A stretch of DNA of 45,231 nucleotides from Deltaproteobacteria bacterium (lineage in GTDB: Bacteria; Desulfobacterota; Syntrophia; Syntrophales; UBA8958): the NCBI GenBank assembly GCA_029561465.1, contig JAKQIZ010000021.1, positions 1 to 45,231 on the forward strand, in the 5' to 3' direction. Every line of letters starts with the position of its first letter. Positions within the stretch are counted from its first letter, which is position 1. The position numbers and the translations under genes were made by a program. Shown here one piece after another: positions 24,592 to 44,811 of the stretch. The notes beneath the pieces were generated by a model that saw only the letters and a program-made list of their open reading frames with translations, was not told where the DNA came from and made no database searches.

Positions 24592-25938
24592 CTATCCAAG
24601 TATTCCTATGAAGACACCACCGGCGATTGCCGCACCGATAGCACCCGCGACATTTGGTCCCATGGCGTGCATCAGCAAAATGTTCTTTGGGTTCTCTTTC
24701 TGACCCATTACCTGAACGACCCGAGCGGACATGGGGACGGCAGAGACACCGGCCCCTCCGATCATCGGATTGATTTTTACCTTCAGGAAGAGGTTCATAA
24801 ACTTGGCGAGAAGCACGCCTGCCCCGGCTGCGGAGGCAAATGAGATAACGCCCAGGACGAGAATCAGAAGCGTCTTGGGTTGCAGAAAATTCTGCGCCGG
24901 CATTGACGCACCGATGGCAAGGGTCAGAAAAATGGTGATGAGATCGACAAAGGTCGTTTGCGCGGTTTTTCTCAGTCGTTCCGTAACGCCACATTCCTTG
25001 AAGAGGTTTCCTACCATGAAACATCCCATCAGGGCGGCGGAGGTGGGTACGATCAGAATGACTATAATCGCTGTGATCAAGGGAAAGACTATCTTTTCCA
25101 CCTTCGAAACCTTTCTGAGTGACGGTTTCATGAATATTCCCCGTTCCTTCTTCGTGGTCAGGAGCCGTATTACGGGAGGAATGATGATGGGAACCAGTGC
25201 CATGTAAGAATAACAAGCGACAGCGGTAGCCCCGATGATATGTGGAGCGAGCACGGAGCTGACATAGATGGTTGTAGGTCCTTCAGCTCCCCCAATGATC
25301 CCGATGGAAGCCGCTTCCGGAAGGGTGAATCCAACGAAAAGCGCCATGAAGAATGCCAGGTAGACACCGAATTGCGCCGCGGCCCCCAGGAGCAGTGTTT
25401 TTGGATTGGCAAGCATGGGGCCGAAATCGGTTAGAGCGCCCAGGCACAGGAACATCAAGGGAGGCAGAATCTGCCACATCACACCGTACTGAAAGATTCG
25501 GGAAAGAAGCCCTACAGGACGTGAAGGATACACTGCCTGGTCGGTCTGCTCCATCGTAAAGATGGAGGCCACCACTTGCCCTTTTTCAACATGCTGTCCT
25601 TTTTCAACAATCAATTCGCCGACCCGTCCGAAGACGGGGGCGACGACCTCGCCCGAATCAAGCTTGCATATGACGCTACCCTTATCGAATCCTTTCCCCT
25701 CCTGTGTTGATATCTCCATTACCGTGCCAGCCTGAGGAGCCTTCAGCCTCATTTCGTAGTCCATCATTCCCCCGAGGGGCAGGTTGACCAGAATCATCCC
25801 GAATCCGATGGGAACCAGCAACAGGGGTTCCATATCCTTGGCGATTGCCAGATATATTAGTATCAGTGCTATTACAATCATCAGCGCGTTTCCCCAGTAA
25901 AACAGCGGGAACCCTGTCTCCATTAATCCAAAAAGCAC
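24592..25938 (-). CDS. Na+-pump decarboxylase beta subunit with inserted barrel-sandwich domain
   Basis: Membrane carboxybiotin decarboxylase subunit (OadB/GcdB/MmdB family), which couples decarboxylation to Na+ export. The 448-residue protein aligns with OadB at IAKDMEPLLLVPIGFG (31-46), LTDFGPMLANPKTLLLGAAAQFG (169-191), GIIGGAEGPT (213-222) and NPMIGGAGVSAVPM near the C terminus. Two features are odd. The loop after helix 2 is replaced by a lipoyl/biotinyl-like barrel-sandwich (about 65-130) that lacks an MKM lysine. Also, the Na+-site Asp of GGADGP is Glu219. The GTG start at 25938 follows AAGGAGG by seven bases. Alpha and biotin-carrier subunits are encoded at 39007 and 37427. Confidence 0.88.
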   Translation of the reverse strand: MLFGLMETGFPLFYWGNALMIVIALILIYLAIAKDMEPLLLVPIGFGMILVNLPLGGMMDYEMRLKAPQAGTVMEISTQEGKGFDKGSVICKLDSGEVVAPVFGRVGELIVEKGQHVEKGQVVASIFTMEQTDQAVYPSRPVGLLSRIFQYGVMWQILPPLMFLCLGALTDFGPMLANPKTLLLGAAAQFGVYLAFFMALFVGFTLPEAASIGIIGGAEGPTTIYVSSVLAPHIIGATAVACYSYMALVPIIIPPVIRLLTTKKERGIFMKPSLRKVSKVEKIVFPLITAIIVILIVPTSAALMGCFMVGNLFKECGVTERLRKTAQTTFVDLITIFLTLAIGASMPAQNFLQPKTLLILVLGVISFASAAGAGVLLAKFMNLFLKVKINPMIGGAGVSAVPMSARVVQVMGQKENPKNILLMHAMGPNVAGAIGAAIAGGVFIGILG

Positions 25939-30822: not shown

Positions 30823-31004
30823 TTTGATTTACATCCTTTATTTTCTTGGTGGCAGCAAGTTACATATAAACGATACGGATTGCAACGCGAAAAATGCGGA
30901 CCATTATTTATTCCTTGACAAATGTGATAATGGTTGTAGAAACTAACCTCCCGATAGTCCTAAGGAAAGCTGCTCTCTCCTTCAGAGGTGTTGGAAGGTT
31001 TGTC

Positions 31005-32405
31005 ATGAAAGAAGATTCGAAACCCAAATGGTTGTCGTATATTAGCGATACTTTGCTTGACGCCTTTGTCGACAATCATTACGAATGCCCGATAGTGATT
31101 GATAAAGACGGCATCGTTCGCTTCATGAGCCGACACAATGTGGGACTTTATGGTATGACTCCGGAGCAGGCGATTGGAAAACACATCGTCGAGGTCAATA
31201 AAAACAGTGGCATGCATGAAACCTTGATAACAGGGAAGGTAGAAATCGGTGCAACGTACCAGCTTGGAGGCCGTCAGCAGATCGTGGCAAGGATTCCGTT
31301 GCGGGACGAGAACAATAAAATCATCGGTGTCCTCGGTAAAAGGATATTCAACAAAGTCGATACGATCAAAGACCTCTATAAAAAAGTGAATATACTGGAA
31401 GGGCAGTTAAAGTATTATCGTAAAGAAGCTACGAACCAGAATATTTATGCCTATGATAAACTTGTGGCGGGTAAGTCGCAACTTATCCAGGAGACGATGA
31501 ACAACGCCCTACAGGCGGCAAAGAGCGATGCGACCGTCCTGGTGACGGGAGAATCCGGGACCGGCAAAGAAGCCTGTGCCATTTTTATTCATAAAGCAAG
31601 CAAGCGAACCGACGGTTCTTTTATCAAGGTCAATTGCGCGGCCATTCCCGCCGAGTTGATTGAAAGCGAGCTTTTTGGGTATGAGGGTGGGGCATTCACC
31701 GGAGCTAAACAGGGTGGTAAACCCGGGAAATTTGAACTCGCACACAAAGGCACCATATTGCTCGACGAAATCGGCGATATGCCGCTGAATATGCAGGCAA
31801 AACTTTTACGCGTATTGCAGGACAAGGAAATTGAGCGAGTCGGTGGCACAAAGCCCATGAAAGTTGATTTTCGTCTTATTGCCTCGACGAACAAAGATTT
31901 GCAGGAAATGATTAAAAAGGGTACTTTCCGGACGGATTTGTTTTATCGACTGAACATATTTACAATCAATACTCCGAGCTTGCGGTCAATCCCCGAAGAC
32001 ATCCCTGAAATCGCCTCGTTTCTGATGAATGAATTGAGTCAGAAAGATAATATGCCGGCCAAACTTATTACGGATGCAGCCATGATTGCTCTGCAGCGAT
32101 ATCCTTGGCCGGGAAACGTAAGGGAATTGAGAAATGTTATCGAGCGGGCCTTGATTATTACCGAAGGGCCTGAAATCCAGTTGCAGCACCTTCCCACGCG
32201 GATCAAAGAGTTGGGCAAGAAATCAAGCAACGGCAATAGAAAATACATCGGTCCTTTACGGGATATCGTCGCTGAAACGGAAAGAAAAGTTATTGTTGAT
32301 GCGATCCGGTCCGTTGAAGGAAACAAACAGAGAGCAGCAAAAATTCTCGGAGTGCACAGAACGGTTCTATATCAAAAAATCAAAAGATATAACATCCCGT
32401 TGTAA
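31005..32405 (+). CDS. PAS-containing sigma54-dependent transcriptional activator
   Basis: A 466-residue activator. It has an N-terminal PAS-like sensor (about 20-120, with VIDKDGIVRFMS and GMTPEQAIGKH), a short coiled linker, a AAA+ domain with Walker A GESGTGKEA, the sigma54 contact loop GAFTGA, Walker B GTILLDEIGD, and a C-terminal Fis-type helix-turn-helix (NKQRAAKILGVHRTVLYQKI). The start at 31005 follows GGAAGG by six bases; the frame extends upstream but without family sequence. It directly precedes a -24/-12 promoter and probably turns on the catabolic cluster in response to a small-molecule or CoA-ester signal. Confidence 0.9.
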   Translation: MKEDSKPKWLSYISDTLLDAFVDNHYECPIVIDKDGIVRFMSRHNVGLYGMTPEQAIGKHIVEVNKNSGMHETLITGKVEIGATYQLGGRQQIVARIPLRDENNKIIGVLGKRIFNKVDTIKDLYKKVNILEGQLKYYRKEATNQNIYAYDKLVAGKSQLIQETMNNALQAAKSDATVLVTGESGTGKEACAIFIHKASKRTDGSFIKVNCAAIPAELIESELFGYEGGAFTGAKQGGKPGKFELAHKGTILLDEIGDMPLNMQAKLLRVLQDKEIERVGGTKPMKVDFRLIASTNKDLQEMIKKGTFRTDLFYRLNIFTINTPSLRSIPEDIPEIASFLMNELSQKDNMPAKLITDAAMIALQRYPWPGNVRELRNVIERALIITEGPEIQLQHLPTRIKELGKKSSNGNRKYIGPLRDIVAETERKVIVDAIRSVEGNKQRAAKILGVHRTVLYQKIKRYNIPL

Positions 32406-32769: not shown

Positions 32770-33933
32770 ATGGATTTTGAGTTAACTACTGAGCAGACGA
32801 TGTTTAAAGACATGGCTAAGGAGTTTGCCATCCGCGAGGTTCAGCCTTACGTGAAACAGTGGGACCGAGACTGCCGGACGCCCCCCGAGATATACCAGAA
32901 GATGGGGGAGCTCGGTTTTCTGGGAATCAACGCGCCCGAAGAATATGGCGGTCTCGCTCTCGGTTGGATGACCGTCGGTATAGTCACGGAGGAGATGGCC
33001 TATTATGATCTGCAGCTTGCTATGAGTATGTTCTCGAGAGTCTCTCTGGGAATGCTGCCTCTCATCCAGAGTGGTTCGGACGAACAGAGGCAGAAATACC
33101 TGCCGGGCCTGATCCAGGGGATAAAGACCCACTGCTTCGGGACCGTGGAGCCGAACGCGGGATCCGACGCCACGGCCATTGAGACAACCGCGGTCGTGGA
33201 CGGCGACGATTACGTCATCAATGGAAACAAGACCTGGATCACCAATGCCTGTCATTCCGATTTCGCCATGGTCGTCTGCCAGACGGACAAGACGAAAGGA
33301 ACCCGGGGTCTGGTAGTCATGTGTGTGGATTGGGGTACTCCGGGTTTCACCCGCGCCCCGATCGAGAACAAGATGGCCTTCCGTCACCACGACCACGGGC
33401 AGCTCTTCTTCCGGGATTGCCGAGTACCGAAAGACAGTCAACTGGGCGGGTTCGGAATTCATTACGGAATGCGGGCGGCCTTCTCCAATGTGGAGCACAC
33501 CCGCTACGGCATCGCCTGCGCCGCCGCCGGAGCGATCAAGGCCTGCTTGGATCTCACGGTCAACTACTGCAAGGACCGCATTCAGTTCAAACGCCCCATC
33601 GCCAGCTTCCAGATGGTCCAGGACAAGATCGCCGACATGGTCATCGCCCATGAAGCGTCCCAGTTGCTGGCTTACAAGCTTGGGTTTCAGAAGGACAAGA
33701 AAGTGGATGTGACGAAGATGTCATCGGTTGCCAAATACCACAACATGCTGATGCTCAAGAAATGCGCCTCTGACGCCGTGGAGCTGCACGGCGCCTACGG
33801 ACTCAGCGACGAATACCCCGTAGAGAGGATCTATCGTGACTGCATGGCCCCGTACATTTACGGAGGCACGGCCCATGTCCACAAGCTGGTCCTCGGGCGT
33901 CTCGAAACGGGGATCAGTGCGGTAGCGAAATAA
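32770..33933 (+). CDS. Acyl-CoA dehydrogenase-like flavoprotein lacking the catalytic Glu
   Basis: A 387-residue protein of the acyl-CoA dehydrogenase fold, closest in motif to glutaryl-CoA dehydrogenases (RYGIACAAAGA, CFGTVEPNAGSD, GGTAHVHKLVLGR). Two key positions differ. The base that is Glu in the -Y-E-G-T- motif is Gly365 (YGGTAH), and the alternative Glu site of isovaleryl-CoA dehydrogenases is Thr. The Arg that binds the distal carboxylate of glutaryl-CoA corresponds to Gln82. FAD-binding segments look intact. It is first in the operon, followed by fixC, so it may reduce ETF or FixC; classical alpha-proton abstraction seems impossible. AAGGAG lies ahead of ATG. Confidence 0.88.
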   Translation: MDFELTTEQTMFKDMAKEFAIREVQPYVKQWDRDCRTPPEIYQKMGELGFLGINAPEEYGGLALGWMTVGIVTEEMAYYDLQLAMSMFSRVSLGMLPLIQSGSDEQRQKYLPGLIQGIKTHCFGTVEPNAGSDATAIETTAVVDGDDYVINGNKTWITNACHSDFAMVVCQTDKTKGTRGLVVMCVDWGTPGFTRAPIENKMAFRHHDHGQLFFRDCRVPKDSQLGGFGIHYGMRAAFSNVEHTRYGIACAAAGAIKACLDLTVNYCKDRIQFKRPIASFQMVQDKIADMVIAHEASQLLAYKLGFQKDKKVDVTKMSSVAKYHNMLMLKKCASDAVELHGAYGLSDEYPVERIYRDCMAPYIYGGTAHVHKLVLGRLETGISAVAK

Positions 33934-33970
33934 ATTTCTGCAACGGCTTCTTCAGAAAGCAGGTTTGAAA

Positions 33971-35257
33971 ATGGATATATTTGATGCGATAATTGTGGGT
34001 GCCGGTCCTGCCGGCTGCGCTGCCGCCTATACGATGGCCAAGGCGGGCCTGAATATCCTGGTTCTGGAGCGCGGCCAATATGTGGGAGCTAAAAATATGT
34101 GGGGCGGGGCTTTCTTCGGTCCCGTCATGAACGAGCTATTTCCGGGTTTCTGGAAGGAAGCACCCGTTGAACGATTCCTCAAACGCCATGTCATTTCTTT
34201 CATGACGAAAGAGGATTGTCTGTCGATTGACTTCAAGTCTTCCCCCGGCGATTTTGACGAAGCGCCCGGTTTCGTTATCATGCGCGCCAAGTTTGACCGG
34301 TGGATGGGGTCGAAGGTGGAGGAAGCGGGAGCGATTATCGCGACCGGTCTGGAAGTAACCGATTTTATCTTCGAGGGAAACAGGATCACGGGCGTCAAGG
34401 TCGGCGATGAGGACTTTCTGGCCAACGTGGTGGTCCTTGCGGACGGCGTCAACTCGCTGCTGGCAACGAAAGCCAAACTGCGTGGTGATTTCAAGGCCGT
34501 CGATCTTAAGCAGGGGGTCAAGGAAGTCATCCGGCTGCCGCGAGAGGTGATCGAAGACCGTTTTGGCGTCAGCGGAAATGAAGGGGTCGTGATGGAATTT
34601 GTGGGCTCCTGTACGCACGGGCTTCCCGGGGGCGGGTTCATTTATACGAATCAGGAGAGTCTTTCGGTGGGCGTCGTGGTACAATTGAGCGCCCTGCTCG
34701 AGAACAAGGTGAAGGCCTCCGATCTCATCGATGAGTTCAAGGAACATCCCGCCGTACGGCCCCTGTGGCGCAACGGGGAGTTGCTGGAATATTCGGCCCA
34801 TCTCATTCCTGTTTCCGGTATTAATATGATGCCGAAGCTATACGCCGACGGTATCCTTGTCGCGGGTGACTCGGCGGCGATGGTACTGGGAACAGGCCTT
34901 ATCCTCGAGGGCGCCAACTTTGCAATGGCCGCGGGGATTGCCGCGGGAGAAACCGTTATCAAGGCCAAAGAAAAGGGTGATTTCACGTCGTCATCGTTGA
35001 ACGACTACGAGCAACGGCTCAAGAGTAATTTCGTCATCAAGGATCTGGAAACCTTTCGCCGCGCCCCCCATTTTCTGGAGAATCCACGGATCTATAATGC
35101 CTATCCGGAGCTTGCGTGCGGTTTGATGGGAAGTATCTTCCACAGCGACGGCAAGCCGAGGAGGAATACGTTGGAGGTCGTCATGGAATCGATGAAGGGC
35201 AAAGTCAGTCTCTGGCAGATTGCTGCGGATGCCATGAAAGCGAGGAAGGCACTGTGA
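33971..35257 (+). CDS. fixC: FixC/ETF-quinone oxidoreductase-like flavoprotein
   Basis: FAD protein that carries electrons from ETF to the quinone pool or into a FixABCX complex. The 428-residue protein has the FAD dinucleotide-binding motif IIVGAGPAGCAAAY (about 6-19), the GAKNMWGGAFFGP region typical of FixC, a VVLADGVNS segment near 156 and the C-terminal FAD motif LVAGDSAAMV near 296. The ATG at 33971 is preferred to the TTG two codons upstream. The next gene, fixX, starts inside its stop codon (GTGA), so the two are coupled. Confidence 0.9.
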   Translation: MDIFDAIIVGAGPAGCAAAYTMAKAGLNILVLERGQYVGAKNMWGGAFFGPVMNELFPGFWKEAPVERFLKRHVISFMTKEDCLSIDFKSSPGDFDEAPGFVIMRAKFDRWMGSKVEEAGAIIATGLEVTDFIFEGNRITGVKVGDEDFLANVVVLADGVNSLLATKAKLRGDFKAVDLKQGVKEVIRLPREVIEDRFGVSGNEGVVMEFVGSCTHGLPGGGFIYTNQESLSVGVVVQLSALLENKVKASDLIDEFKEHPAVRPLWRNGELLEYSAHLIPVSGINMMPKLYADGILVAGDSAAMVLGTGLILEGANFAMAAGIAAGETVIKAKEKGDFTSSSLNDYEQRLKSNFVIKDLETFRRAPHFLENPRIYNAYPELACGLMGSIFHSDGKPRRNTLEVVMESMKGKVSLWQIAADAMKARKAL

Positions 35258-35526
35258 AAATAGAAGAAAAATTAGCGCGTAATAAATTTGATATCGACCG
35301 CGAGGTACACATCCAGGTGGACGAGGAAAAATGCAAAGCATGTGAATCCAAGGTCTGCCTGTATGCCTGTCCTGCGGAGTGTTATGTCCTGCGGGCGGAA
35401 GGTCATGTGACCTTCTCTTACGAAGGATGTCTGGAATGCGGAAGCTGCCGATTCTCCTGCGACAAGGGCACCATTGCCTGGGTCAATCCCCGCGGAGGAT
35501 TCGGAGTATGTTATCAATACGGTTAA
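35254..35526 (+). CDS. fixX: Ferredoxin-like protein FixX
   Basis: Small Fe-S partner of FixC. The 90-residue protein carries the cysteine pattern CKACESKVCLYACP (about 28-41) and CLECGSCRFSC (about 58-68), like FixX and the Fe-S domain of ETF-quinone oxidoreductase. The GTG start overlaps the fixC stop and is preceded by AGGAAGG; the longer frame upstream is a shadow of fixC. It is followed at 11 bases by etfB. Confidence 0.9.
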   Translation: MKIEEKLARNKFDIDREVHIQVDEEKCKACESKVCLYACPAECYVLRAEGHVTFSYEGCLECGSCRFSCDKGTIAWVNPRGGFGVCYQYG

Positions 35527-35536
35527 AGGAGGAAAA

Positions 35537-36334
35537 ATGGATATCATTGTCTGTATCAAGCCGGTTCTTGATCCCGAACTTCCACCGCTCAAGTTTGCAG
35601 TAGACGGTAAGAAGAACCAGGTGATTCCCCCGGAGGGGATGCCATTTTTGATGAGTCCCTATGATGCTCTGGCGGTGGAAGCTGCCCTTAGGGTCAAGGA
35701 AGCCAAGGGAGGAAAGGTGACGGTTCTTACCTTGGGGACGAAGTATACCGAAGAAGTAATGCGTAAAGCCATAGCCATGGGAGCCGATGAAGGTTTTATT
35801 CTCACGGATCCCGCCTTTGAGGATTCAGACGGATTTGCCACGGCATACATCTTAACCCAGGCGATCAAGAAAATCGGATCGTTTGACATGATCCTCTGCG
35901 GCCGGCAGGCGGCAGATTGGGATGTGGGGATGGTGGGATCCGCGATGGCCGAATACCTGGGGATACCAGTAGTGATCCGGGCCAAGTCCATTGAGGTCCT
36001 GGACGGCAAAATCAAGGTGGAGCGGGTCGTCATGAATGGCTCCGAGGTCTTCGAGGTGGCGCTTCCCGCTCTTGTGACCATGAGCAATGAGATGGGTCAG
36101 GCCCGCATTCCCGCCGGTCGGGGCATCATTATGGCGGCCAAAAAGCAGTTCCAGAAATGGGGCGCCGCCGATTTAGGTGCGGAGGCTTCAAAAACAGGCG
36201 CCGCTGCCGCCCGTAACAACCTCATTAAACTATTTATCCCGTCCTATCAGAGGACCTGTGAATATGTTACGGGTAAGGACCCGGCCGAAGCTGCCGCTCT
36301 GCTGGCGGAAAAAATTCTTGCGATTAAACCTTGA
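35537..36334 (+). CDS. etfB: Electron transfer flavoprotein beta subunit
   Basis: With EtfA it accepts electrons from acyl-CoA dehydrogenases. The 265-residue protein starts DIIVCIKPVLDPE, with MSPYDALAVEAALRVKE near 43, the AMP/FAD site region CGRQAADWDVGMVG near 124 and VTMSNEMGQAR near 180. The start at 35537 follows AAAGGAGG; an upstream in-frame extension belongs to the fixX region. As etfB and etfA lie next to fixC and fixX, the set may form a FixABCX-like bifurcating complex, or serve the two dehydrogenases of the cluster; sequence reading alone does not decide. Confidence 0.92.
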   Translation: MDIIVCIKPVLDPELPPLKFAVDGKKNQVIPPEGMPFLMSPYDALAVEAALRVKEAKGGKVTVLTLGTKYTEEVMRKAIAMGADEGFILTDPAFEDSDGFATAYILTQAIKKIGSFDMILCGRQAADWDVGMVGSAMAEYLGIPVVIRAKSIEVLDGKIKVERVVMNGSEVFEVALPALVTMSNEMGQARIPAGRGIIMAAKKQFQKWGAADLGAEASKTGAAAARNNLIKLFIPSYQRTCEYVTGKDPAEAAALLAEKILAIKP

Positions 36335-36346
36335 GAGGAATGAACA

Positions 36347-37345
36347 ATGGCTGATAGTAAAGCAATACTTGTTGTTGGAGAAACGGAGAAGGGCAAGATG
36401 GCTTCCATCACCCGGGAACTTCTCGGCGGCGCCAGAGTGTTGGCGGATCAGTCGGGTGGGGATGTTTGCCTGCTACTGCTCGGTGAAATCGCTGCGGCGC
36501 TTGCCTCCGAAGGTATTTCCCTTGGGGCGGATAAGGTATATGTGGCTACCAATGCCGCATACAATGAATTCAGCAGCGATGCCTACACGGAGCTGGTGAG
36601 CGGCCTGTGTGCAAAGATAGCGCCGGCCCTTTGTCTGATGGGACAGACGGATCTGGGCTGCGAAGTTGCTCCCCGCGTGGCGGCGAGGCTTGGGGCGGCC
36701 CTGGCCATGGATTGCGTTGAGGTAGTATTTGATGCGGAAAACGGGCGCTTCCAGCAGACCCGGCCGGCATTTGGCGGGAAGGCCCTTTCGGTGCTTGCAT
36801 CGACAAAGGGACTGCTTCAGATCAACACCGTCCGCGCGAAGTCTATGCAGGCGGCGGCGCTTCAGGATGGACGCAAGGGAGAAACGGTAACCATTGCGGA
36901 AGCTCCGGCCCCCGGCGTCATCAAAGTGAAGCTTCTCGAAGCGAAGAAGACGGAAGCGGAGGGCATTAAACTCGAAGACGCCAAGGTGATTGTATCCGGC
37001 GGTGGCGGTTTGGGCGGTACGGAAGGTTTCGCAATGATCAAGGAATTGGCGGACCTGCTCGGTGGTGTGGTTGGAGCGACCCGGGTTCCCGTAGACGAAA
37101 ACTGGGTGCCTCTGAGTATGGAAATAGGTCAAACCGGAAAGATCGTGAGTCCGGAACTATACATCGCCATCGGAATCTCCGGTGCGGCGCAGCACGTTAC
37201 CGGTTGCATCAGCTCCAAGAAGATCGTGACCATCAACCGTGATCCTGACGCCAACATGTTCAAAATATCCGATCTCGGACTCGTCGCGGATTACAAGGCC
37301 GTCGTCCCCATATTGATCGAAAAGTTGAAGGCGATGAACACATAG
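36347..37345 (+). CDS. etfA: Electron transfer flavoprotein alpha subunit
   Basis: Carries the main FAD of ETF. The 332-residue protein has the C-terminal FAD domain with VSGGGGLGGTEGF (about 216-228), GATRVPVDENWVP near 243, IGQTGKIVSPELYIAIGISGAAQH near 260 and INRDPDANMF near 294. It follows etfB by 12 bases and precedes the free biotin carrier. It is the usual partner of the EtfB above. Confidence 0.93.
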   Translation: MADSKAILVVGETEKGKMASITRELLGGARVLADQSGGDVCLLLLGEIAAALASEGISLGADKVYVATNAAYNEFSSDAYTELVSGLCAKIAPALCLMGQTDLGCEVAPRVAARLGAALAMDCVEVVFDAENGRFQQTRPAFGGKALSVLASTKGLLQINTVRAKSMQAAALQDGRKGETVTIAEAPAPGVIKVKLLEAKKTEAEGIKLEDAKVIVSGGGGLGGTEGFAMIKELADLLGGVVGATRVPVDENWVPLSMEIGQTGKIVSPELYIAIGISGAAQHVTGCISSKKIVTINRDPDANMFKISDLGLVADYKAVVPILIEKLKAMNT

Positions 37346-37850: not shown

Positions 37851-38948
37851 ATGGCAGAAAAAAAACGTTATGGCATGTTAGAGATGGACGATGAACAGAA
37901 GAAACATTTTGATAAACTAATTGTTAAAAAGAATTTCACGAAGTTGGATCCTGAACTGAATGCGATGATTATGGGCGCAAGGAAAGGGATGCCCCCGATC
38001 ATTGATATTCACACCCATCCCTACACAAAAACCGGCTGGCGAAGCCTGGGAAAATTCCGGGTGCATCTGGAGAAATACCTTTACGGCAAAAAGGATATCA
38101 CGCCGGAACAAATATCGGCTTCTCTGCCATCGGAAGAAGAGTGGGTAAAGACCTTCCAGGAACTCGGCGTGAAAGTCCTGCCCTGCGGATGGGCGGCGCA
38201 GACGACGATGGGAGACGATCCTCTCTACGCCGATAATACAAATGACGAGATTGCGGCCATGCGCGACAAGTGGCCGGATACCGTCATCTCCGGATGGGGC
38301 TCCGTTGATCCCTGGCAGGGTTATAAAGCGATCAAAGAGGCGGAACGCTGCTGCAAGGAACTTAAACTCGTCGGGTTAAAATTCCAGCAGGTGGGGCAGG
38401 CCTTCCACGTTAACGACAGACAGTTCTATCCACTCTGGGATGCCTGCCAGGAACTGGGCATGCCCATCCAGCTTCATACCGGCTTTACCGGGCTCGGAAG
38501 CGGGGCGCCGGGTGCCCTGGGGACAAAAATCAAATACACGATGCAGCTCATCCCTGATATTGACGATATCTCCGCGGATTTCCCGAATTTGAAGATCATC
38601 ATGCTGCACTGCTCCGACGGCCGGGATGAAGATGCCGTGCTGCTGTGCCGTCACAAGGGCAACATCTTCCGCGAGCTTTCGGGTATTTGGCCGAATTACC
38701 TGCCGGAGAACGCCCCCAAGACAGTCTATGAGGCGAACCGCCGTCAGAAGGACAAATACATGTTCGGCTCCGAGTTCAACCTCTTCCCCCTGGACGGGAT
38801 CCTCTACCAGCACATGCAGTTCGGATGGCGTGAAGGTGTCCTCGAATCCATGTTCTGGAAGAATACCGTCAGAATTCTGGGTCCGGAGCTGGAGCGAGCG
38901 GGCGTCGACCTGAAACAGTGGAAAGTCGGCAACCTGGAAGAAGTATAA
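37851..38948 (+). CDS. Amidohydrolase-2 family metal enzyme (possible decarboxylase or hydrolase)
   Basis: A 365-residue TIM-barrel protein of the amidohydrolase-2/ACMSD-like family, whose members decarboxylate aromatic acids or hydrolyse lactones and similar bonds. Metal ligands are His54 and His56 (DIHTHP), His209 (QLHTGF) and His253 (MLHCSDGRDE). The usual Asp at the end of strand 8 (FGSD) is Glu308 (FGSEFN). About 45 N-terminal residues precede the barrel. Lying between the biotin carrier and the carboxyltransferase, it presumably acts on a pathway intermediate; its reaction is unknown. AGGAGGAGG precedes ATG by about ten bases. Confidence 0.75.
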   Translation: MAEKKRYGMLEMDDEQKKHFDKLIVKKNFTKLDPELNAMIMGARKGMPPIIDIHTHPYTKTGWRSLGKFRVHLEKYLYGKKDITPEQISASLPSEEEWVKTFQELGVKVLPCGWAAQTTMGDDPLYADNTNDEIAAMRDKWPDTVISGWGSVDPWQGYKAIKEAERCCKELKLVGLKFQQVGQAFHVNDRQFYPLWDACQELGMPIQLHTGFTGLGSGAPGALGTKIKYTMQLIPDIDDISADFPNLKIIMLHCSDGRDEDAVLLCRHKGNIFRELSGIWPNYLPENAPKTVYEANRRQKDKYMFGSEFNLFPLDGILYQHMQFGWREGVLESMFWKNTVRILGPELERAGVDLKQWKVGNLEEV

Positions 38949-40577: not shown

Positions 40578-40988
40578 ATGATTAAAGGAATAGACCATAT
40601 CGGAATTGCAGTGAAGAGCATCGACGAGACGCTGGGTTTTATGAAGGATGCATTCGGCGCCGAGGAAGTAAAGCGGATCGACTATCCTCAGCTACAGCAG
40701 GTATCTTCCTCCGTAAAGATCAAAGATACGACATTCGAGTTGATGCAGCCCACCGGACCTGATGGCGCTATCGCACAGTTCATGAAGAACTCCCCCACTG
40801 GCGGTTTTCATCACATCTCCGTTCTTTGCGATGATCTGGAGAAACTGGTTGGGGAACTGGAAGGAAAAGGGCTCAAGATCATCGGAAAGATGTACGACGG
40901 ACCTGACCGGGTGGCCTTCATTCACCCCAAGAGCGGCAAGGGCCTGTTGATTGAATTGACGGATACGGGGACTTACGGAAAGAAGTAA
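40578..40988 (+). CDS. Methylmalonyl-CoA epimerase-like VOC protein
   Basis: A 136-residue vicinal-oxygen-chelate protein. Metal ligands are recognisable as His7 (IDHIGIAV), His79 (GFHHISV) and Glu126 (LLIEL), with Glu54 (TTFELMQP) in the fold. The similarity is to methylmalonyl-CoA epimerase, which interconverts 2-carboxyacyl-CoA stereoisomers. Next to a carboxyltransferase it probably presents the right epimer of a malonyl-type CoA ester for decarboxylation. The exact substrate is unknown. AAAAGGAG precedes ATG. Confidence 0.82.
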   Translation: MIKGIDHIGIAVKSIDETLGFMKDAFGAEEVKRIDYPQLQQVSSSVKIKDTTFELMQPTGPDGAIAQFMKNSPTGGFHHISVLCDDLEKLVGELEGKGLKIIGKMYDGPDRVAFIHPKSGKGLLIELTDTGTYGKK

Positions 40989-41035: not shown

Positions 41036-41788
41036 ATGAAATTGAAAGATAAGGCAGCGATTGTGACAGGTGCGGGACAGGGGATCGGGAGGGCTATTGC
41101 CCTTGAGCTGGCTGGCGAAGGAGCTAAGGTTTGCGTAGCCGATTTGAATCCCGAAACGGCAAAAAAAACAGCCGCGGAGATCAAGGCGATGGGTATGCAA
41201 GCCATTGCAGTTACGGCTGATATTACGGATCTGTCCCAGTGTGAAAAGATGGTGCAAGCTACCATTGCCGAATTCGGCTGCGTTGATGTCATTGTAAACA
41301 ATGTGGGTTGGGACAAGATGGAGCCTTTCATCAAAAGCGAACCTACTACTTGGGATAAGGTGATTGCCATCAATTTGAGGGGCCCGATTAACTGCTTCAA
41401 GGCGGTTCTTCCCGTAATGATCGAACGCAAGTATGGCAGGATCGTCAGCATCGCATCCGATGCCGGTCGTGTGGGATCAAGCGGTGAGGCTGTCTATTCC
41501 GGTGCAAAAGGAGGAATCATTGCCTTTTCGAAAACGGTAGCGCGAGAGGTGGCGCGTTATGGTATTACGATCAACTGTGTTTCTCCCGGACCGACCGACA
41601 CCCCGCTATTCGCTGCCGTTGCCGGCGACAATCCCGCCATTGCCGAAGGCCTCAAAAAGGCTATCCCCCTGCGACGCTTGGCCCAGCCCGAAGACATTGC
41701 CGGAGCAGTGGCCTTTTTTGCTTCTGACAAGGCGAGCTATGTGACCGGGCAGGTTCTGAGTGTGAGCGGTGGTCTTAATATGGTTTAA
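41036..41788 (+). CDS. Short-chain dehydrogenase, BadH-like (2-hydroxycyclohexanecarboxyl-CoA dehydrogenase)
   Basis: A 250-residue NAD(P)-dependent SDR. It has the cofactor motif TGAGQGIG (11-18), NNVGWD near 88 and triad Ser141, Tyr154 and Lys158 (YSGAK). Segments such as ASDAGRVGSSGEAVY, VSPGPTDTPLF and TGQVLSVSGGLNM closely recall, from memory, Rhodopseudomonas BadH, which oxidises 2-hydroxycyclohexanecarboxyl-CoA. Together with a neighbouring dehydrogenase and ligase this suggests alicyclic acid metabolism; oxidation of another 3-hydroxyacyl-CoA is also possible. GAGGAG lies ahead of ATG. Confidence 0.85.
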   Translation: MKLKDKAAIVTGAGQGIGRAIALELAGEGAKVCVADLNPETAKKTAAEIKAMGMQAIAVTADITDLSQCEKMVQATIAEFGCVDVIVNNVGWDKMEPFIKSEPTTWDKVIAINLRGPINCFKAVLPVMIERKYGRIVSIASDAGRVGSSGEAVYSGAKGGIIAFSKTVAREVARYGITINCVSPGPTDTPLFAAVAGDNPAIAEGLKKAIPLRRLAQPEDIAGAVAFFASDKASYVTGQVLSVSGGLNMV

Positions 41789-41833: not shown

Positions 41834-43003
41834 ATGGATTTTGAATTTAATGAGGAACAAGTTGCTCTGCGCGATATGGTGAGAAGATTTACGGAGAAGG
41901 AAGTCGCACCCTATTATACGCAATGGGACCGCGAGAAGAAATATCCAAAGCATATCAACAAGAAGATAGGCGAACTGGGCCTCATCGGCATGACCGTTCC
42001 TCCGGAAAAGGGAGGTATGGGCGCCCCATATGTTACGGAAGGGATGGTCTGCGAGGAGGTATCGCGGGGCGATTGCAGTATAACCATGTCAACCTTCGTG
42101 GTGGGCCATCTGGATGCGGAGATTCTCGCCCAGGGAAACGAGACCCTGAGAAAGGATTTCCTGCAACCTTTCCTCGCGGGCGATAAGATTCCCGCCTTTG
42201 CCATCACGGAACCAGGTTCCGGCACCGACGCCGTGGCGATGAAGGCGACGGCGATCAAAAAGGGGGCAAAATACATCCTGAACGGTGAGAAGGCCGGCAT
42301 TACGGCAATGATGGACGCGGACTTTGCCGTTGTCTTTGCCAAGTCTGATCCGGCCGCCGCCGGTGCCAAGGGCGTCAGTTGCTTCGTGGTGCCGACGGAC
42401 TATCCGGGCGTGACATTGCAATCCTATGAGGATATGGGCGTACGCTCGGTCGCCAGAGGCTCCATCTTCATGGAAGATGTGGAAATTCCTGATTATTATC
42501 TGATCGGCAAGGAAGGCAGGGGATTTGCAATGGGTATGGAGGGATTCGATATCAGTCGTATCCTGCTTGCCCTGGAAGCGATTGCCCCCGCCATGGTTTC
42601 CCTTGAAGAGACGATAGAGTATGCTAAACAGCGCAATACTTTCGGCCGGCCCATCGCTACCTTTGAAGGTGTTTCGTTTCCCATTGTAGAGCATATTAGC
42701 ATCCTGGAAGCCGTGCGACTTCTCTGTTATAAGGGGCTTTGGATGCGGGATCAGGGAAAATCAAGCACGAAGATCGCGGGAATGGTTAAATGGATGGCGC
42801 CGAGATTTTCCACCAACGCAATTCGAGACTGCCTCGTCATGCACGGTCATCCGGGGTACACAAACGAGTTTCCTTTTGAGCAGCGGCTAAGGGATGTTCT
42901 GGCCATCGAAATTGCCGATGGGACGTCCCAGGTTTCGAAATTGGTCGCGCTTCGGGAACTATTCGGAAGAGAATATTTGCCTTATACTTATAGAAATAAA
43001 TAG
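41834..43003 (+). CDS. Acyl-CoA dehydrogenase with Asp as putative base (alicyclic type)
   Basis: A 389-residue FAD enzyme oxidising an acyl-CoA and passing electrons to ETF. It has FAITEPGSGTDAVAM near 121, the C-terminal NEFPFEQRLRDVLAIEIADGTS segment, and Asp362 in the -A-D-G-T- motif, where most family members have Glu. Asp instead of Glu is, as I recall, reported for cyclohexane- and cyclohexene-carboxyl-CoA dehydrogenases. Next to the BadH-like gene and an AliA-sized ligase it may oxidise cyclohexanecarboxyl-CoA. AAAGGAGAG precedes ATG. Confidence 0.88.
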   Translation: MDFEFNEEQVALRDMVRRFTEKEVAPYYTQWDREKKYPKHINKKIGELGLIGMTVPPEKGGMGAPYVTEGMVCEEVSRGDCSITMSTFVVGHLDAEILAQGNETLRKDFLQPFLAGDKIPAFAITEPGSGTDAVAMKATAIKKGAKYILNGEKAGITAMMDADFAVVFAKSDPAAAGAKGVSCFVVPTDYPGVTLQSYEDMGVRSVARGSIFMEDVEIPDYYLIGKEGRGFAMGMEGFDISRILLALEAIAPAMVSLEETIEYAKQRNTFGRPIATFEGVSFPIVEHISILEAVRLLCYKGLWMRDQGKSSTKIAGMVKWMAPRFSTNAIRDCLVMHGHPGYTNEFPFEQRLRDVLAIEIADGTSQVSKLVALRELFGREYLPYTYRNK

Positions 43004-43164
43004 TTTCGTTTGGGAGTCCGAGAAGACGTCGCACAAAATATAAATAAGGAGGGAGGTGTTAGAGGTAGTTCAAGGTCAAAACTGGTGATCAAATGTTTTT
43101 TGTTTCATGGCGGGGAGTGAATCCATACCAAATCATTTCTCGAAAAAAAAAAGGAGGAAAAGAA

Positions 43165-44811
43165 ATGGGTAAGGGAGTAGATTATTCAATTTTAAAAGAG
43201 CTCTGGGAAAAGAATTATACCATCACTACCCAACTATATCGTAATTTGCAGAAATGGCCGGATAAACCGGCGATCATCGATCCATTGAAAAGAACCATGA
43301 CTTTCAGACAGTGGGATGAAGAGGCAAATCAGTTCGCCCATGCCCTTCTCGATGCGGGATGTACGACTTTTGATACCGTCATGGGCGATCTTTATAACTG
43401 CTGTGAGTGGTTTACTCTGTACATGGGCGCAGCCAAGGCAAGATGCATATTTGCCTCCCAGAATTTCATGCTTCCTGAAGGCCAGGTCTCCAGACTCATG
43501 GATGATAGTGAGGTGAAGGTTTTCGTATATGACGCAGGCATGAAGAATATGGTGGTGAATGCCGTTGCATTATGCAAGACCAAACCCCGAGTCTGTGTGA
43601 TGGTGGGTGCGGGCGAAGTTCCGGCGGGCCATGTGAGTTATGAGAAGTTCATCGAAGGGAAACCTAAGACGGCGCCGGCGACTGAAAAGGATGTCAAGAT
43701 GTTTGATCCGGTACTTCTTCTTTACACTTCCGGGACGACGGGATTACCCAAGGGATTCACATTGAGTCAAGCCTGTATCTTTTTCGACTGCATGATGAAT
43801 GCCGGATTGCATAAGATAGACTCTCAGTGCGTCAGCCTGGCGACGAATCCGCTTTTCCATCGGGGCGGGAATACAACGGGCCCCGTTTGCCTGCTCCACT
43901 GCGGCGGCTCCGTCGTCATAATGAAGGCATTTGATGACAATCTGGCTCTCGATTACATCGAAAAGTACAAAGTCTCACATATGGTGAGCGCTCCCGTTAT
44001 CTATGAGAGAATGTGCCAGACCCAGGAGAAGCAACCTCGAGATGTCAGTAGCCTCCGGGCGCTCATTTCCATGGGCTCGCCGCTGGACAAGGAATCATGC
44101 CTCAGGTGCATGAAGATCCTCTGTCCGGGTGTTTACAACGGCTACGGAACGGCGGACCAGCATTGGGTCACCATGCTGAAACCGTGGGAATTACCGGAAA
44201 GGGCGGGAACCATCGGCCTTGCCATCACCGAAGACCTGATCAAACTCGTCAGAATCGATCTCGGGCGCCGTGGCGACCCCAACAATCCAGCCGACGATTG
44301 CCCAAAGGACGGCAAGACTGAAGGCGAAATCGCCCTCCAAACCATGCACGGCTGTTATGGCTATATCAACAGACCGGAAGATGAAGCCAAGGGCCTTTTG
44401 TACCGGGGTTGGCAGCTTCCGGGTGACACGGCCATCTGGGATAAAGATGGTTACATTACCATTTGCGGCAGGGTAGACGACATGATCATCACCGGCGCCG
44501 AAAACGTCCACCCGGTTATTGTAGAGGACGCGCTGAAGGACCATCCGGGTGTCGCCGATGTATTTGTAACAGGAGCGCCCAGCAAGGAATGGGGCGAAAC
44601 AATTGTCGCCTACGTGGCTTTGAAGGATCCTAATGTTACGGAAAAGGATCTTGAAGAGTTCTGTAAAAATAGCCCGAGACTCGCCAGATACCAGCGGCCG
44701 AGATATTACAAGTTCGTTGATATCAAGGAACTGCCGTTCAATCCCGCGGGAAAGAAACTGCACTATCTGATCAAGGAGCGGGCGAAGAAGGATTTCGTTG
44801 ACCTTGCATAG
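43165..44811 (+). CDS. AMP-forming acyl-CoA ligase (AliA-like in size and context)
   Basis: Activates a carboxylic acid to its CoA thioester in the cytoplasm. The 548-residue protein has the P-loop LYTSGTTGLPKG (about 189-200), NGYGTADQH near 327, the GDTAIWDKDGYITICGR hinge near 424-440 and the catalytic lysine region FNPAGKKL near 525. The start at 43165 is preferred because AAGGAGG lies seven bases before it; the frame is open further upstream without family sequence. Length and neighbours match cyclohexanecarboxylate-CoA ligase, but acid specificity cannot be read. Confidence 0.88.
   Translation: MGKGVDYSILKELWEKNYTITTQLYRNLQKWPDKPAIIDPLKRTMTFRQWDEEANQFAHALLDAGCTTFDTVMGDLYNCCEWFTLYMGAAKARCIFASQNFMLPEGQVSRLMDDSEVKVFVYDAGMKNMVVNAVALCKTKPRVCVMVGAGEVPAGHVSYEKFIEGKPKTAPATEKDVKMFDPVLLLYTSGTTGLPKGFTLSQACIFFDCMMNAGLHKIDSQCVSLATNPLFHRGGNTTGPVCLLHCGGSVVIMKAFDDNLALDYIEKYKVSHMVSAPVIYERMCQTQEKQPRDVSSLRALISMGSPLDKESCLRCMKILCPGVYNGYGTADQHWVTMLKPWELPERAGTIGLAITEDLIKLVRIDLGRRGDPNNPADDCPKDGKTEGEIALQTMHGCYGYINRPEDEAKGLLYRGWQLPGDTAIWDKDGYITICGRVDDMIITGAENVHPVIVEDALKDHPGVADVFVTGAPSKEWGETIVAYVALKDPNVTEKDLEEFCKNSPRLARYQRPRYYKFVDIKELPFNPAGKKLHYLIKERAKKDFVDLA

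Follow-up and report, generated by a model that had tools for sequence, protein, structure and literature searches.

The acyl-CoA dehydrogenase P0001 (ACAD1), encoded in the window (the whole analyzed stretch of 45,231 nucleotides), is devoid of its catalytic base, and this loss is real and conserved. We consider it rather probable that the clade to which the protein belongs lost the catalytic Glu and acts on 2-carboxyacyl-CoA (substituted malonyl-CoA) esters, the loss of CO2 replacing the base. The observations behind this reading are that the base is absent, that the known alternative sites hold no carboxylate, that the loss is conserved, and that the Glu-less proteins group in one clade, together with the gene context and the type of the neighboring mutases; from these we infer which reaction takes place, on which substrate, and where the electrons go. 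Since the clade without Glu is often found near genes making or handling carboxylated substrates, CO2 loss probably does the job of the Glu. The gene and its diagnostic codons are located as follows:

32770..33933, + strand: Glu-less acyl-CoA dehydrogenase (ACAD1, P0001), an intact 387-aa ORF with ATG start and the Pfam ACAD N, M, and C domains
33862..33864, + strand: codon of Gly365, at the catalytic Glu site (alignments to PDB entries and relatives)
33145..33147, + strand: codon of Val126, at the Thr site of the FAD motif; Val is common in Glu-less focal proteins
33499..33501, + strand: codon of Thr244, at the alternative base site of isovaleryl-/long-chain dehydrogenases (alignment)
33019..33021, + strand: codon of Ala84, aligned with the Arg of glutaryl-CoA dehydrogenases (alignment)

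Both its Pfam domains and its fold (Foldseek) place P0001 in the acyl-CoA dehydrogenase superfamily. A second AlphaFold2 model (mean pLDDT 93.7, pTM 0.92) was used for fold comparison only, the first one being poor in the active-site segment and set aside. All 50 Foldseek matches listed are dehydrogenases or complexes containing one, with TMq values of 0.94 for the top match 4l1f, 0.95 for 3mpi, and 0.94 for human glutaryl-CoA dehydrogenase (1siq). On sequence level, 3mpi is the third-best PDB match, the NCBIfam model of best E-value is acryloyl-CoA reductase (317.5 bits compared with a cut-off of 640), and the nearest named relative, 89% identical, originates from a Syntrophaceae metagenome bin (L017).

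Near its C-terminal part, RIYRDCMAPYIYGGTAHVHKL (translation of ORF 32770-33933), P0001 carries the motif IYGGT. The initial annotation had proposed that Gly365 replaces the invariant Glu, and this was borne out: in a phmmer search against the PDB, the Glu of 5ol2, 4l1f, 3mpi, and short-chain dehydrogenases aligns with Gly365, and Gly is present in all nine close-family rows. The predicted Thr at the Glu site of isovaleryl-CoA dehydrogenases (IVD) was likewise confirmed as Thr244, with ORFs having Ala in the motif and Glu at 244 as positive control, leaving P0001 without a catalytic Glu in the YEG motif as well as at the IVD/LCAD site. The Foldseek matches listed also include 1egd, by its title the T255E/E376G mutant of human medium-chain dehydrogenase, whose mutated sites correspond to Thr244 and Gly365 of P0001 (offset 11, from the 1egc alignment). 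The FAD motif reads VEPNAGSD compared with the usual TEPNAGSD, Val126 standing for Thr; the TEPNAGSD-type motif is given as FAD-binding in PMC11659651. Of the earlier statement that FAD-binding parts and genetic position look functional, the second half holds with fixC-fixX-etfB-etfA downstream, but the FAD motif deviates somewhat from the standard form. The Arg that we take to bind the glutarate carboxylate in glutaryl-CoA dehydrogenase had been placed at Gln82; the Arg of 3mpi aligns with Ala84, so that the position was off by two, yet its absence from P0001 stands.

The close family, compiled from kin genomes, comprises nine aligned members including P0001, all with Gly at 365 and Tyr or Phe before it; LGG, MGG, or PGG is found in a more distant subclade of Glu-less proteins. 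For a broader view we used a census of 108 dehydrogenase loci (103 rows of a best-match listing and five loci of an earlier search, at most four dehydrogenase candidates being scored per genome), in which the best-scoring dehydrogenase ORF of each fetched stretch was defined as the focal protein. Eighteen census rows were picked first, many for matches running to the C terminus, and 80 others were added by rank. The focal protein is without Glu in at least 22 loci and with Glu in at least 86, these counts and those derived from them being lower bounds and not exhaustive. Gly-Gly-Thr occurs in 22 of the 22 Glu-less focal proteins, and Gly also in three later members (L183, L184, and L188), which came from targeted searches and stand outside the Fisher tests. 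Val126 is present in 21 of the 22 (the exception L088 having Ala) compared with none of the 86 Glu-containing focal proteins. Phylogenetically, the 22 form one clade (SH-aLRT 98), as do the 25 Glu-less sequences including P0001 and the three later members when the diagnostic columns are left out (SH-aLRT 99). A sequencing error restoring Glu, named in the initial annotation as a refutation, was rejected, since Gly is found in all close-family rows and further Glu-less relatives, 25 of 25 Glu-less proteins seen. Loss of the catalytic base cripples ordinary acyl-CoA dehydrogenases, and by that measure P0001 might be catalytically inactive or have a structural or regulatory role. We regard this as highly improbable in view of a clade conserved across many families with Gly in every member seen, and of an Etf/FixC module beside seven of nine close-family genes.

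The Glu-less clade sits in a larger group (SH-aLRT 96) with Glu-containing clades. This group also hosts the family of the Desulfococcus-type glutaryl-CoA dehydrogenase (3mpi, NF045552), including proteins which pass the curated model (cut-off 470 bits), i.e., L142 with 502 and L130 with 657 bits. P0001 differs from this type by reaching 305.9 bits and by having neither the Glu nor the Arg. In column 84, Arg is present in seven of seven rows of the neighboring Glu-containing clades (L142 and L130 being two of these rows), and Ala, Gly, or Thr in 20 of 20 Glu-less rows.

A replacement base was sought at the sites used by other dehydrogenases. Within 145 dehydrogenase ORFs of the 108 census stretches, the Glu site hosts Glu in 113, Gly in 23, Ala in three, and Asp in two cases, the remaining four being motif-less fragments. 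Glu at 244 accompanies the Ala-type motif in three of three ORFs, compared with none of the 23 Gly-type ORFs. Isovaleryl- and long-chain dehydrogenases follow the same pattern, with no motif Glu (GAG type) but Glu at the site that is Thr244 in P0001. The structure 7p98, which we take to be cyclohex-1-ene-1-carboxyl-CoA (Ch1CoA) dehydrogenase with Asp91 as its base, is likewise Glu-less (motif IYTGT). The place of its Asp91, however, is taken by Leu93 in P0001 (row set against P0001 by eye). An alternative base at the IVD/LCAD site or at the Asp91 site was thus rejected on alignment. A scan for Asp or Glu residues that Glu-less proteins conserve but Glu-containing ones rarely have returned, at the level of the whole clade, Glu138 and Asp347, and at the level of the close family, Asp80, Asp208, and Glu338. 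The alignment check for another carboxylate, suggested in the initial annotation, hence gave a divided answer: none at the known alternative sites, but Glu138 and Asp347 enriched in the clade.

These residues bear on the possibility that P0001 is an ordinary alpha,beta-dehydrogenase whose alpha proton is taken by another acid (Asp80, Glu138, or Asp347) or by a water network. The invariance of Asp80 in the close family and the clade-wide enrichment of the other two fit this explanation, as does Ch1CoA dehydrogenase, which presumably swapped its C1 base for an Asp elsewhere. However, Ser takes the place of Asp80 throughout the second subclade (13 members in the census), Asp80 is present too in the Glu-containing relative L047, Asp or Glu at 242 is common among ordinary dehydrogenases, and the known alternative sites hold Thr244 and Leu93. 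Positions 138 and 347 are not known to lie near C2. Together with the visible compensation in Ala-type and its lack in Gly-type dehydrogenases, this makes proton removal by another acid or by a water network unlikely.

The gene context of P0001 in the window comprises the following features:

30894..32405, + strand: sigma-54 dependent activator, named by eye; a 60% identical homologue lies upstream of the dehydrogenase in L032
32588..32603, + strand: possible -24/-12 promoter with one mismatch
33965..35257, + strand: FixC-like flavoprotein, adjoining the dehydrogenase
35254..35526, + strand: FixX-like ferredoxin, name and start by eye inside ORF 35116-35526
35537..36334, + strand: EtfB, start by eye inside ORF 35474-36334
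36347..37345, + strand: EtfA (profile search)
37851..38948, + strand: amidohydrolase (PF04909); a 75% identical homologue follows etfA in L032
38989..40548, + strand: biotin-dependent carboxyltransferase subunit of the PccB/MmdA type (TIGR01117, 681 bits, cut-off 999)
40578..40988, + strand: methylmalonyl-CoA epimerase homologue (93 compared with a curated cut-off of 115)
41036..41788, + strand: short-chain dehydrogenase
41834..43003, + strand: second acyl-CoA dehydrogenase, whose motif IADGT has Asp in place of the Glu (TIGR03207, 353 bits, cut-off 575)
43093..44811, + strand: acyl-CoA ligase (profile search)

Matches resembling the -24/-12 promoter showed no excess over chance in the window. 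The best PDB match of the carboxyltransferase subunit is propionyl-CoA carboxylase beta. Solved epimerases have Glu at two sites, one of which is Gln in the epimerase homologue; we assume the replaced Glu to be catalytic in methylmalonyl-CoA epimerase. For the second dehydrogenase, the best NCBIfam match is the cyclohexanecarboxyl-CoA dehydrogenase model, below its cut-off; a GDG motif is reported for such enzymes (PMC8360864). Further upstream, positions 24592-25938 on the reverse strand encode a sodium-pump decarboxylase beta subunit (TIGR01109), and a biotinyl/lipoyl-type-looking stretch without the usual MKM was noticed by eye.

Extension of the neighborhood analysis toward the other loci showed fixC adjoining the dehydrogenase in seven of nine close-family loci; of the other two, L031 is cut by the contig end, and the 1.6 kb left in L036 contain no fixC. 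At 412-1691 of L033, fixC is split over two ORFs, by a frame disruption or an assembly fault. Within 6 kb, fixC is found at nine of 22 Glu-less compared with one of 86 Glu-containing loci. A carboxyltransferase, mutase, B12, MeaB, or epimerase-like gene lies within 300 bp at 13 of 22 Glu-less vs. 10 of 86 Glu-containing loci (p 1e-5) and within 6 kb at 17 of 22 vs. 31 of 86 (p 6e-4), and an epimerase-like gene within 300 bp at three of 22 vs. none of 86 (p 0.008; L188 is a further case), whereby these p-values from Fisher tests on census loci overstate the significance because the loci are related. None of the counted genes was found within 6 kb in five of the 22 Glu-less loci, each of which is truncated by a contig end at a distance of 6 kb or less on one side or both.

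The individual loci vary in their composition. B12-dependent mutases together with their B12 subunits are encoded in L033 (mutase large subunit), L088, L035 (B12 subunit by eye), and L077. Locus L035 additionally hosts MmgE/PrpD, CoA transferase, TRAP transporter, and enoyl-CoA hydratase genes, and an epimerase homologue precedes its dehydrogenase at a distance of 69 bp. In L077, homologues of PrpD, DctP, and the epimerase are encoded, and one further ORF resembles a CoA transferase (by eye). In L038, MeaB is 3 bp apart from the dehydrogenase and accompanied by a CobA-like gene (by eye), and in L184 a B12 subunit is encoded ~90 bp upstream of the dehydrogenase. An epimerase homologue directly precedes the dehydrogenase in L035, L074, L077, and L188. 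The same position is taken by a carboxyltransferase in L075, L078, L080-L085, L087, and L183. In six of these loci the dehydrogenase is followed by an acyl-CoA ligase, and some of the compact pairs are preceded by a regulator-like ORF (by eye).

At 11 Glu-less loci a carboxyltransferase is encoded within 6 kb, each time of the PccB/MmdA kind (44-49% identical to that of the window, or the window's own), although several Glu-containing loci have this kind too. Moreover, a carboxyltransferase lies within 300 bp at nine of 86 Glu-containing loci, several of the glutaryl-CoA dehydrogenase type, beside which it may decarboxylate glutaconyl-CoA. Because Glu-containing dehydrogenases have such neighbors too, a carboxyltransferase neighbor alone does not prove a malonyl-type substrate. 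By analogy to the glutaryl-to-glutaconyl route, P0001 might instead oxidize a dicarboxylic or vinylogous substrate with an acidic C2 proton, its product then being decarboxylated by the carboxyltransferase. The clade indeed groups with glutaryl-CoA dehydrogenases, several of which adjoin carboxyltransferases and OadB, and L032 as well as the window (there on the opposite strand) encode OadB homologues upstream. Still, we judge this route to be quite unlikely: the glutarate Arg is absent, the loci with mutase and epimerase genes would be left unexplained, and the uniform carboxyltransferase kind near the Glu-less genes, shared as it is with several Glu-containing loci, also speaks against it.

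In respect to the mutases, proximity alone was rejected as support, a large subunit within 6 kb being not enriched (two of 22 Glu-less vs. 18 of 86 Glu-containing loci); only the mutase type discriminates. Among the matches listed, a mutase lies within 10 kb of two of nine close-family members compared with seven of ~154 other dehydrogenases (Pfam positions, by eye). We take Tyr/Arg vs. Phe/Gln at two typing sites as marker of the mutase substrate type, consistent with the letters of solved mutases: human methylmalonyl-CoA mutase has Tyr and Arg (solved-structure letters), and 2-hydroxyisobutyryl-CoA mutase, acting on a monocarboxylic ester, has Ile/Gln. Typing of ORFs of more than 300 codons anywhere in the fetched stretches revealed the methylmalonyl-type Tyr/Arg in the mutases of four of four Glu-less loci (L033, L035, L077 twice, and L088), those of L035 and L077 being located 6-9 kb from the Glu-less gene, compared with one of 19 Glu-containing loci. 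The latter (17 census loci plus L189 and L190; L139, with a mutase match in the census, was left out) comprise 13 with Phe/Gln, five with other residues, and L142 with Tyr/Arg. The counts do not include a Phe/Gln mutase that neighbors another dehydrogenase ~20 kb away from the Glu-less gene of L035. The genome of the window (92% complete) has no PF01642 mutase match on the window contig; its sole full-length mutase is encoded on another contig and has Leu/Thr at the two typing sites.

A precedent for base-free catalysis is IaaF, the benzylmalonyl-CoA dehydrogenase of Aromatoleum aromaticum, described with GGG in place of YEG (PMC8360864). For this enzyme, oxidative decarboxylation was measured, and loss of CO2 at C2 instead of proton abstraction was proposed in 2021 (PMC8360864). 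The same source describes IaaF as fed by the B12 mutase IaaGH, its genes as part of indoleacetate operons, ETF as not used in vitro, and a methylmalonyl-CoA epimerase as acting on benzylmalonyl-CoA in an assay (PMC8360864). P0001 resembles IaaF in having Gly at the catalytic Glu site, and the mutase genes near some of its relatives (L033, L035, L077, and L088) are reminiscent of IaaGH. In contrast, P0001 has YGG (FGG, LGG, MGG, or PGG elsewhere in the clade) where IaaF, compared by its description only, has GGG. Moreover, no indoleacetate operon was recognized around P0001, the window contig is devoid of the mutase genes found in the IaaF operon, and Etf and FixCX genes neighbor that of P0001 while IaaF did not use ETF in vitro. 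P0001 probably works like IaaF; most likely it is a decarboxylating dehydrogenase akin to IaaF but belonging to a lineage of its own. A kinship search for IaaF yielded three more clade members and no recognizable IaaF. The idea of CO2 loss in place of a base, already put forward in the initial annotation, is therefore the best-supported reading in the light of the IaaF precedent and the neighboring genes, with the reservations that carboxyltransferases also accompany Glu-containing enzymes and that the mechanism had already been proposed for IaaF. The clade itself may be new: a literature search covering few subscription journals returned neither the clade nor its Val126 marker nor the links to carboxyltransferases and methylmalonyl-type mutases.

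Under decarboxylation in place of a base, the alpha-carboxylate of the substrate would sit in the space left by the absent Glu side chain. CO2 would depart from C2 and a hydride would be transferred from C3 to FAD, giving enoyl-CoA, CO2, and FADH2, and the operon structure suggests that EtfBA and FixCX would serve as dedicated electron acceptors. In the window operon, the PccB-like subunit may generate the malonyl-type ester by carboxylation or transcarboxylation, perhaps assisted by the epimerase homologue, and in some relatives this ester may be provided by a B12 mutase. Ethyl- or alkylmalonyl-CoA from the carboxyltransferase, or methylmalonyl-CoA converted to acryloyl-CoA, are our guesses for the substrate. 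More tentatively, and with considerable doubt, the clade could represent a general, IaaF-independent decarboxylating class, in which carboxyltransferase-dehydrogenase-ligase operons, perhaps including that of the window, carboxylate C2 and subsequently lose the same CO2 on oxidation. Such a transient carboxylation would render dehydrogenation more favorable and deliver electrons at lower potential, a device suited to syntrophic anaerobes. If CO2 loss does replace the base, base-free decarboxylating dehydrogenation would be the chemistry of a broad anaerobic clade rather than a lone oddity of auxin breakdown, drawing its substrates from either B12 mutases or biotin carboxyltransferases and offering one more route by which carboxylation can be coupled to a difficult oxidation. 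It would also explain Glu-less dehydrogenases that match acryloyl- or glutaryl-CoA models best in NCBIfam, yet with scores far short of the cut-offs.

The Glu is absent from further enzymes. Sulfinopropionyl-CoA desulfinase is described with AGG, and the pimeloyl-CoA dehydrogenases PimC/PimD with YGG as in P0001 (PMC8360864). The latter models are reached by P0001 with 109.8 (TIGR03203, cut-off 653) and 85.4 bits (TIGR03204, cut-off 624). The desulfinase precedent leads to a leaving group other than carboxylate (desulfinase-like or another elimination), and the acryloyl-CoA reductase model as best NCBIfam match to an enoyl-CoA reductase fed by EtfAB and FixCX. Both are very unlikely in our estimation; P0001 scores 199.5 bits with the 3-sulfinopropanoyl-CoA desulfinase model (NF042439, cut-off 600), no sulfur genes were noticed in passing in the neighborhoods, and the gene context favors a 2-carboxyacyl-CoA.

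Two minor observations concern other unusual motifs. A dehydrogenase with the GGG motif described for IaaF (YGGGT) and without Glu at 244 is encoded at 14006-15235 of L074, beside TRAP-like transporter genes. As it falls outside the P0001 clade in the tree, on a long branch of unsure place, it hints that the Glu was lost more than once. In L079 and L086, a PEG-motif dehydrogenase is found near an epimerase homologue, another dehydrogenase, and short-chain dehydrogenase and thiolase-like genes.
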